A stretch of 64,000 nucleotides of DNA. It comes from Salipiger sp. CCB-MM3 (GTDB lineage Bacteria > Pseudomonadota > Alphaproteobacteria > Rhodobacterales > Rhodobacteraceae). The stretch lies in assembly GCF_001687105.1 (NCBI RefSeq), contig NZ_CP014595.1, positions 1,635,001 through 1,699,000 on the forward strand, given 5' to 3'. Below, one piece after another: positions 28,705-30,180 of the stretch (position 1 is its first letter; each line of letters starts with the position of its first letter). Position numbers and translations under genes: made by a program. The notes beneath the pieces were generated by a model. The model did not search any database. It had not been told where the DNA came from and worked only from the letters and a program-made list of their open reading frames with translations.

Positions 28705-29124
28705 TCAGTCCGGATCGACCTTGCCGCGCATCGCCTTGACCTCGCCGCGCTCTTTCTTGGCCTTGATCCGGCGGTTTTTCGAGCCGAGCGTGGGTTTGGT
28801 CGGGATGCGGCGGCGCGGCTTTTCCAGCGCCTTGCGGATCAGCTCGGCGAGGCGCTCGCGGGCGATCTCGCGGTTGCGGGCCTGACTGCGGGTCTCTTCG
28901 ACCTGCAGGATCAGCGCGCCTTCCTTGGTCCAGCGGCGACCGGCGATGCGTTTGAGCCGCGCCTTCACCGGGCCGGGCAGATTGGGCGAGCGGTCGGCTT
29001 CGAAGCGCAGTTCGACGGCGGTCGAGACCTTGTTCACATTCTGCCCGCCGGGCCCGGAGGACCGGATGAACTGTTCGGTGATCTCCCAGTCCTCGATGGC
29101 GATGTTGTCGTTGATGCGCAGCAT
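28705..29124 (-). CDS. arfB: Peptidyl-tRNA hydrolase ArfB (alternative ribosome rescue)
   Basis: 139-residue rescue factor (YaeJ/ICT1 type) that releases peptides from stalled ribosomes lacking a stop codon. The catalytic GGQ is in RSSGPGGQNVNKVSTAVELRF, as in class I release factors, and the tail is strongly basic (KPRRRIPTKPTLGSKNRRIKAKKERG in parts), as needed to probe the empty mRNA channel. ATG 29124 is chosen; the longer open frame adds residues unlike the family. It is a single gene on the minus strand upstream of a palindromic repeat and recQ. Confidence 0.93.
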   Translation of the reverse strand: MLRINDNIAIEDWEITEQFIRSSGPGGQNVNKVSTAVELRFEADRSPNLPGPVKARLKRIAGRRWTKEGALILQVEETRSQARNREIARERLAELIRKALEKPRRRIPTKPTLGSKNRRIKAKKERGEVKAMRGKVDPD

Positions 29125-29262
29125 GGCCGGGACATTAGCGTGCGCGGCGCGGCTTGCAAGCGGGGCGGTCTCGTACAGCGGGGCGCGGCAAAAGCAGACG
29201 GCCCGCGCCGGAGGGGCACGGGCCGTGACTGAAAGAGACGGGTCTCTCAAAGTTTTCCCTCA

Positions 29263-29296: not shown

Positions 29297-29332
29297 GGGA
29301 AATGGGTCACCCTGCCTGTGGGGTGACCCATT
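29297..29332 (-). terminator. Strong terminator of the short minus-strand transcript
   Basis: ATGGGTCACCC (minus strand, from 29332) pairs perfectly with GGGTGACCCAT over 11 bp with an 8-nt loop, followed by TTTCCCTTT. It ends the unit that contains the extreme Shine-Dalgarno sequence at 29457-29473, and possibly also yhhQ. Confidence 0.8.
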
Positions 29333-29400
29333 CGAGACGTCAAGGAGGCGGGGCCGGTTAGGTCGCGCCAATTCGGGTTCCTTCACGCCAGGGGTTGCCC

Positions 29401-29457
29401 TAGCGCACTGCCCTCCGAACTGTTCCGACACCTTTCTCCAATGTTTCTCTAGACACT
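29401..29457 (-). CDS. Putative 18-residue ORF behind an extreme Shine-Dalgarno sequence
   Basis: GTG at 29457 opens 18 codons, MSRETLEKGVGTVRRAVR, ending in TAG. The leader directly upstream is GAAAGGAGGTGATCCAG, complementary over 17 nt to the 16S rRNA 3' end, with the AGGAGG core 7 nt from the GTG. A second, longer frame begins at the GTG inside this sequence and runs through the terminator. The unit follows yhhQ by about 65 bp on the same strand. Whether it is a microprotein gene, a regulatory RNA or a leader is not settled. Confidence 0.45.
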
Positions 29458-29473
29458 GGATCACCTCCTTTCA
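29457..29473 (-). promoter_or_regulatory. Seventeen-base match to the anti-Shine-Dalgarno end of 16S rRNA
   Basis: The plus strand reads CTGGATCACCTCCTTTC, the exact 3' end of bacterial 16S rRNA; the minus-strand transcript therefore carries its full complement. Ordinary ribosome-binding sites here match 4-7 bases. No other rRNA-derived sequence flanks it, so a decayed 16S copy is unlikely. Confidence 0.7.
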
Positions 29474-29538
29474 GCTGTTTGAAAAACGCAAGTTCAGCGT
29501 GCCACGGAATGTGGACTCCGCAAAGCATTTTTAACAGC

Positions 29539-30180
29539 TCACGCGAGGGAACGCGCTGCAACTGCCTTCGAAACGATCATTCGGAACGGCACCAGCGCCA
29601 GGAGGGCGAGCGAGAGCTTTACCAGCCAGTCCGCCAGCCCCAGCGAGACCCAGAGCGGCACGATCGGCCCCATGCCCAGAAGCGGCAGCGTTTCATTGGC
29701 CCAGGACACGTCATTGCCCGGCTCGAGGAAGGTGAAGGCGCCGGAAAAGGCCACCGAGAAGAAGATCGCCGTGTCGAGCGAGCTGCCCACCAGCGTCGAG
29801 GCCAGCGGCGCGCGCCACCATGCGCCGCCGCGCAGCTTGTCGAAGATCGCCACATCCATCAGCTGTGCGGCGAGGAAGGCGGCACCGGAGGCGATGGCCA
29901 CGCGCAGCGTCACGGCGGGATAGCTGTAGCCGTCGCCCTGCAGGATCACCTGCGTGCCGATCAGCGAGCAGATGACGCCGGTGACGAAGCCCGCCAGCAC
30001 GACCTTGCGCGCGGCCTGCGCGCCGTAGAGCCGGTTCATCAGGTCGGTGACCAGAAAGGCGATGGGATAGGTGAAGGCCCCCCACGTCAGCCATTGGCCA
30101 AAGAGGAACTGCACGAGGATGTTCGAGGCCAGCACGGTGGCGGCCATGGCAAGAATGCCGGGAAGATAGGAGCGTGTCAT
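29539..30180 (-). CDS. yhhQ: Queuosine precursor transporter (VUT family, YhhQ-like)
   Basis: Membrane protein of 213 residues with about six helices, of the COG1738/PF02592 family that imports the queuosine precursors queuine or preQ0/preQ1. Family marks are FGQWLTWGAFTYPIAFLVTDLMNRLYG, VILQGDGYSYPAVTLRVAIASGAAF and LVGSSLDTAIFFSVAF (in pieces). ATG 30180 is preferred; a GTG at 30222 would place the start inside a stable leader hairpin. No clear Shine-Dalgarno sequence is seen before the ATG. It follows a phytase-like gene by 65 bp, a gap filled by the two-stem structure. Confidence 0.85.
   Translation of the reverse strand: MTRSYLPGILAMAATVLASNILVQFLFGQWLTWGAFTYPIAFLVTDLMNRLYGAQAARKVVLAGFVTGVICSLIGTQVILQGDGYSYPAVTLRVAIASGAAFLAAQLMDVAIFDKLRGGAWWRAPLASTLVGSSLDTAIFFSVAFSGAFTFLEPGNDVSWANETLPLLGMGPIVPLWVSLGLADWLVKLSLALLALVPFRMIVSKAVAARSLA

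Follow-up and report, generated by a model that had tools for sequence, protein, structure and literature searches.

The minus strand of the 64,000-nucleotide stretch of Salipiger sp. CCB-MM3 DNA analysed here (the window) carries a unit of about 180 nt (170-180 nt) that we read as a member of a class-wide group of coding small RNAs with an extreme, selected Shine-Dalgarno sequence (SD). The unit lies between a transporter gene (29539..30180, minus strand, Pfam Vut_1) and a gene with an RF-1 domain (28705..29124, minus strand, Pfam RF-1), which we take to be ArfB-like from its size and domain. We consider it probable that this unit is a free-standing coding sRNA gene, the Rhodobacteraceae form of a family that extends over the Alphaproteobacteria and includes the CC2171 sRNA, and that ribosome loading, its inferred function, is the working part of the element. 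Shine-Dalgarno pairing usually spans some 4-8 nt, and a longer match is regarded as an obstacle to initiation. Here, a pairing of 15-17 nt is near-invariant across the class and precedes an open reading frame (ORF) of which the start, stop and length are kept and the peptide is not. The element is therefore a natural test of the effects of over-long pairing and a candidate ribosome-sensing RNA.

Reading of the minus strand placed the anti-16S leader GAAAGGAGGTGATCCAG / GAAAGGAGGUGAUCCAG, a "super Shine-Dalgarno", at 29472-29456, with its AGGAGG core 7 nt before a GTG start codon (29456-29454). This GTG opens an ORF of 18 codons (29400..29456, minus strand), which encodes the peptide VSRETLEKGVGTVRRAVR and is closed by a TAG stop (29402-29400). 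The 7-nt spacing and the 18-codon frame, both proposed in an earlier sequence-only reading of this DNA, were confirmed in this way. The same reading had announced a strong terminator of 11 bp about 70 bp further on. A hairpin with a 12-bp stem (AATGGGTCACCC / GGGTGACCCATT) was indeed found at 29332-29301 on the minus strand, 67 nt after the stop codon. Its tail TCCCTTTAAG is a weak U-tract, and a scan for consensus signals detected neither a terminator nor a sigma-70 promoter for the unit.

The reference for the 16S rRNA was a generic alphaproteobacterial 3' tail of 45 nt, standing in for the organism's own 16S; records from plasmids of Rhodobacter and Paracoccus, among others, matched it at 45/45 positions, presumably because these plasmids carry rRNA operons. 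Positions 29472-29456 are a perfect 17-nt complement of this generic tail, and to that extent the proposed complementarity to the 16S 3' end was upheld. The sequence CTGGATCACCTCCTT occurred once in the searchable part of the own genome, at the leader site, and simple arithmetic puts the expected number of any one 17-mer in 5.5 Mb at about 0.0006. When 289 genomes of the class were searched, the pattern GAAAGGAGGTGATCNNRTG gave 49 sites in 48 genomes and its reversed control none. The bare 14-mer GAAAGGAGGTGATC was present in 83 of the 289 genomes (control 0), and with an RTG in place in just 48 of them. No SSU match reached the Rfam threshold in the window, and the flanks of the leader are not 16S, with no similarity beyond the 17 nt; the opinion that a decayed rRNA copy is unlikely was thus sustained.

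For comparison, 110 Rhodobacteraceae loci were fetched (30 + 80), of which 106 carry a leader that deviates at no more than 3 of 21 positions; these are the family loci referred to below. The first 15 nt of the leader were identical in 70 of these 106 loci and in 23 of 30 loci found with the Rfam model RF01867. Substitutions that preserve the pair with 16S by wobble made up 29/42 in the family and 6/8 in the RF01867-found loci, for a random expectation of 0.23; however, 26 of these 35 pairing-preserving substitutions concern one A-to-G site, and shared descent inflates the counts. Judged by this pattern of substitutions, the leader is selected for pairing with the 16S tail. The anti-16S stretch is also the most conserved portion of the element, and the bases flanking it vary, except for AAC upstream and TC after the RTG. 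As these two motifs are not explained by 16S pairing, their retention argues for a common descent of the loci. An RTG followed the leader in all 30 RF01867-found loci (16 ATG, 14 GTG). The earlier idea that the RNA could hold 30S subunits would fit such a near-invariant leader.

By BLAST, the element was found in 235 of 295 Rhodobacteraceae genomes, 60 giving no match; within the genus, all 13 genomes, the own genome included, have it. The search in this family, suggested as a check in the sequence-only reading, therefore revealed conservation and not the absence from relatives that was to count against it. In a collection of 84,980 species, each represented by a single genome, the pattern GAAAGGAGGTGATCCNRTGTC occurred in at least 119 stretches. 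Among the matches listed (80), 77 bore alphaproteobacterial names and 3 were labelled Proteobacteria only; the orders, assigned by hand from the organism names, were Sphingomonadales, Rhizobiales, Rhodobacterales, Rhodospirillales and Caulobacterales. In a phylum sample counted by hand, AAGGAGGTGATCNNRTG was present in 49 of 86 alphaproteobacterial genomes versus 8 of 213 others, and the reversed pattern gave 0 hits in the same sample. Not every AAGGAGGTGATCNNRTG site is the element, since one of them (L353) opens a 52-codon frame of different look. The leader, the start and a short ORF thus recur across alphaproteobacterial orders and rarely elsewhere. One genome (G306) has two copies of the long leader with RTG, at C1:805112 and C1:2922069, probably a duplicated element.

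The nearest named family is RF01867 (CC2171), to which the window aligned with 36.0 bits (E 3.9e-6 for 451 bases; whole-genome E 1.1e-5), short of the gathering cut-off of 75 bits. This model matched 61 of the 289 class genomes at E 0.001, 9 of them over the cut-off, and among 14 control genomes Caulobacter alone matched. The conserved 5' leader of RF01867, AACA..GAAAGGAGGUGAUCC with RTG-TC, is present in the window, and the CC2171 sRNA of Caulobacter shares the 5' part AACA..GAAAGGAGGUGAUCCAGUGUCU followed by a terminator hairpin. The middle is unlike in sequence and fold: the closing helix CAUUGUC / GACAAUG, which precedes the terminator in RF01867, was unmatched in the window alignment, and Rhodobacteraceae have the helices P1-P5 instead. 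RF01867 is filed as an sRNA; it is named in the paper on Rfam 15 and in a study of Mesorhizobium, and the passages concerned mention neither an ORF nor 16S pairing. The latter study, which used RNA-seq, lists the candidate sRNA MH_s33 of Mesorhizobium huakuii as RF01867. Our results suggest that this family is translated and far wider than its model detects. The match to CC2171, the class-wide range and the pairing of the leader with a 3' anti-SD, described below, go beyond the sequence-only reading.

In order to evaluate the ORF, its length was compared over the loci. It is exactly 18 codons in 106 of the 110 Rhodobacteraceae loci, namely 102 of the 106 with a standard leader and all 4 with a changed one; the remaining 4 standard-leader ORFs run 20-24 codons. 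In the changed-leader loci (L018, L117, L128, L131), one leader base is lost, the leader is shortened to GAAAGGAGGTG[TC]CC with an 11-nt continuous match remaining, and the start is TTG; their start hairpin is kept, with both strands changed, to CCAUUG...CCAUGG or similar. These loci had been considered as losses of the leader and ORF, which was rejected on re-reading, since the 18-codon frame, the TTG and the 11-nt match are all there. This re-reading slightly strengthens the ORF evidence, and the variant is a natural case for how much 16S pairing is needed.

The stop codons of the 102 family ORFs were TAG (51), TGA (31) and TAA (20), with TGG at none, whereas shuffling of the second and third columns gave 15.4 TGG on average and a minimum of 7 in 10,000 shuffles. 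This is direct evidence of a selected stop at codon 19, with the caveat that related sequences are not independent and that an RNA constraint on the same bases is possible. Premature stops were absent from the family ORFs, versus about 6 (lowest 1) in column-shuffled sets. Among the RF01867-found (30) and named (80) loci, an ORF of 14-31 codons was present in 108 of 108, compared with 30 in shuffles (maximum 42); two loci, one cut (L184) and one with 59 codons (L244), had been removed beforehand, and about a dozen of the loci are of Rhodobacteraceae type. In the 30 RF01867-found loci, the ORF measures 18-30 codons and mostly starts with Met-Ser. Among 30 loci from the pattern search in the 289 class genomes, which overlap the RF01867-found and named ones, 22 ORFs had 14-31 codons, 7 were longer (32, 32, 34, 34, 35, 39 and 57 codons) and 1 was cut. 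By the tests of start, stop and length, the ORF is therefore under selection as an ORF. In L079 and L244, the long leader precedes ORFs of 57 and 59 codons with the look of secreted proteins (hydrophobic N-terminus), so that the leader may also serve other small genes.

The window RNA folded better than 200 of 200 dinucleotide shuffles (z -5.1). A consensus fold was derived from 99 of the 106 family sequences, 7 being dropped because their 3' motif was not located automatically. It consists of helix P1, in which leader GGAGGUG pairs with the 3' anti-SD CGCCUCC (29344..29350, minus strand), a motif resembling the 16S anti-SD; a predicted hairpin P2 enclosing the start codon (UCCAGUGU...ACAUUGGA, 29437..29460, minus strand); P3; P4, in which codons 12-14 (29423-29415) pair with CCGAATTGG (29376-29368) over a span of 29368..29423 on the minus strand; P5, a small hairpin GGGCAACCC immediately 3' of the stop codon (29392..29400, minus strand), with covariation at 2 of its 3 pairs; and the terminator. 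Compensatory changes were found at 19 of the 42 consensus pairs (tool alignment, 38 of the 99 sequences), mostly in P4, in P5 and its outer pairs, and in the terminator; all 6 consensus pairs of P4 showed at least one. P1 and P2 vary little or one-sidedly in the 38-sequence alignment, which hence says little about them. Of the 106 family loci, 63 have CGCCTCC or CACCTCC as their 3' anti-SD, and many of the other 43 have forms such as CATCTCC, which still pair by G-U. Over 129 loci, the SD was paired above 0.7 in 60. Sequestration of the SD was consequently rejected as a class-wide function: it is strong in Rhodobacteraceae, and present in Bradyrhizobium and some others, but not general.

The computed energy of the leader:16S duplex was -32.4 kcal/mol, versus -9.2 for AGGAGG. 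Once the cost of opening the fold was included, pairing of the full leader was favourable in all 99 family sequences (median -21.1), that of AGGAGG alone in 95 of 99 (median -3.9), and that of AGGAGG with the start codon also opened in 39 of 99 (median +0.7). In the window, the corresponding values were -18.7 kcal/mol, +0.2 and +4.5. In the RF01867 set and in Sphingomonadales, fold opening costs little, which indicates that sequestration is an addition of the Rhodobacteraceae, shared by 5 Bradyrhizobium loci, and does not account for the leader in other groups. As it is not class-wide, and as by energy AGGAGG alone would still open the fold in 95 of 99 family sequences, provided that the start codon need not open, the switch may not be necessary and cannot be the general function.

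In the mechanism that we propose, the leader of the transcribed RNA would base-pair along the entire 3' tail of 16S rRNA and capture a 30S subunit, which would start at the GTG, translate the 18 codons and stop. In Rhodobacteraceae, the 3' anti-SD, which copies that of the ribosome, would hold the leader, and a hairpin would do the same for the start codon. Since the 17-nt pairing spans the 5' strands of both helices, the ribosome could open the fold by strand exchange, and an RNA gated in this manner may report or buffer free 30S subunits. We take ribosome loading as the working part since the orders differ in the peptide and yet retain the start, the stop and the length; for the same reason, the peptide is probably less important than ribosome capture.

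Signals of an own promoter and terminator are clear in relatives. A TTGACA-like box (at least 5/6) precedes the leader in 74 of the 106 family loci, most often at a distance of 47-48 nt, whereas shuffles gave a mean of 22 and a maximum of 32. In the window, the -35 box of the promoter region (29473..29532, minus strand) is weak (TTTGCG), like the U-tract, and the hairpin at 29301..29332 aligns with the terminators of relatives. The element is treated as its own gene with possible read-through. The kind of neighbouring gene was identified in 56 of 139 loci and fell into three: arfB-like in 37 loci (on the same strand and downstream in 36, on the opposite strand and upstream in 1), DUF188 in 9 (8 on the same strand) and aminotransferase class IV in 10 (10 of 10). 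Such neighbours raise the alternative of a translation-controlled attenuator, in which ribosomes on the ORF would set read-through of the terminator into the downstream gene, arfB-like here and DUF188 in Rhizobiales. Leader peptides of the trpL type, which act as attenuators, likewise consist of a very short ORF followed by a terminator, often just upstream of a gene. The spacing is in favour of this alternative: in 10 of the 15 loci scored, the arfB-like gene begins 16-53 nt past the terminator (in two others, L026 and L031, the terminator was called at an odd place), and DUF188 begins 20-37 nt past it in 6 of 8, leaving little room for a separate promoter. However, when a segment able to pair with the 5' arm of the terminator was sought in 129 loci, no antiterminator above shuffles was found (duplex z about -0.1), and an R/Y contingency analysis showed no covariation with the terminator arm, for which reasons attenuation was rejected. 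Moreover, the gap is 176 nt in the window, with another hairpin inside, and 566, 101 and 127 nt in L024, L183 and L197, and the downstream neighbour differs between orders. We regard attenuation as rather improbable.

Another rival is a true microprotein gene, the 18-residue peptide and its counterparts being clade-specific products for which the leader provides high expression. For it speak the motif SRxxLE[KR]GVGT, largely kept across Rhodobacteraceae, and a raised synonymous share of single changes in this family (0.44 versus 0.28 expected). In the named loci, the peptides measure 18 residues in most Sphingomonadales (MSHGSA...), 14 in Bradyrhizobium (MSYxKRCHLAGIAR, with KRCHLAGIAR identical in 5 of 5 named loci), 22-23 in Mesorhizobium and kin (MSSDF...) and about 23-25 in many other Rhizobiales (MSHCHQP...). 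Furthermore, Sinorhizobium meliloti has a 23-residue protein, SEP1, which is conserved in Rhizobiaceae; its translation efficiency is reported as the highest among 54 unannotated ORFs, and a tagged fusion was seen by Western blot (PMC10117765). A 23-residue ORF was present in 7 of 7 loci read from one of our families (f160), but its calculated pI (5.4-6.5; 4.05-4.14 for two 22-residue versions) does not reproduce the 4.18 reported for SEP1, so that the identity of SEP1 as the S. meliloti member of the element is unproven and stays a lead. Against a microprotein, the pairwise differences among the 102 family ORFs are evenly spread over the codon positions (25,376; 25,899; 24,663), with no third-position excess, and amino-acid selection was rejected as the main signal. 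In 20 Sphingomonadales loci, picked for an 18-codon MSHG-type ORF, the synonymous share was 0.20 versus 0.25 expected. Codons 12-14 are tied to the covarying helix P4, and between orders the peptides share at most Met-Ser, with calculated pI from 4 to 12. Amino-acid selection thus appears modest in Rhodobacteraceae and was not seen in the 20 Sphingomonadales loci; selection is clearer for the frame than for the peptide, and it is chiefly the start, the stop and the length that speak for translation. Of the three roles suggested in the sequence-only reading, two, a small RNA and a translated ORF, find support and seemingly form one coding sRNA. The microprotein has a weaker case, amino-acid selection being modest and the peptides different between orders; we find it unlikely.

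A bolder form of the preferred reading is a dedicated ribosome-capture RNA of Alphaproteobacteria, a short mRNA that would be translated in order to bind 30S subunits and whose peptide would have no lasting importance. In Rhodobacteraceae it would have become a switch, with the two anti-SDs competing for the leader and the fold reporting free 30S; we hold this possible, with less conviction than the broader reading. A non-coding RNA merely masking 16S tails, a 30S sponge with an incidental ORF, would agree with the conservation of the anti-16S stretch and with its very stable duplex. Yet a sponge needs neither an ideally spaced start nor a stop at codon 19, both of which are kept even in the changed-leader loci, and we judge it highly doubtful. 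For an over-long Shine-Dalgarno arisen by chance or a decayed 16S copy, nothing speaks beyond the match itself; in the face of class-wide conservation with non-16S flanks and of a reversed control without sites in 289 genomes, this origin is in our view already refuted, and we give it practically no weight.

The coding sRNA favoured here has partial likenesses among known systems. Dual-function or coding small RNAs, such as SgrS/SgrT and Spot 42/SpfP, and Pos19 of Rhodobacter, likewise combine a short transcript, an own terminator and a small ORF; to our knowledge, none of them has a perfect 16S-tail leader. The type I toxin mRNAs hok and tisB are likewise short, with a start region closed by a long-range 5'-3' helix, but the ORF of the element is charged and not membrane-like, and its fold is not class-wide. 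From trpL-type leaders it differs in having no antiterminator, which was looked for, and in its varying neighbour. The descriptions of the known Rhodobacter sRNAs RSs1624, Pos19 and SorY, as far as consulted, gave no link to the element. Pos19 is reported to be conserved among strains of R. sphaeroides, with no counterpart found in other species (PMC5036791). In Caulobacter, Ribo-seq indicated translation of two RNAs earlier predicted to be non-coding, which the relevant passages leave without names (PMC4117421).

Three further features of the region were observed. The hairpin between the terminator and the ArfB-like gene is GC-rich, with an 8-bp stem ACGGCCCG / CGGGCCGT at 29198-29226; relatives in which the gene starts 16-53 nt past the terminator have little room for a counterpart. 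The window begins inside a 23S rRNA gene, after which come 5S and tRNA-Met (1-2484). Finally, AAGGAGGTGATCCAG (the leader, 29456-29472) is also the sequence of common 16S reverse PCR primers, so that 16S primers could prime on the leader gene.
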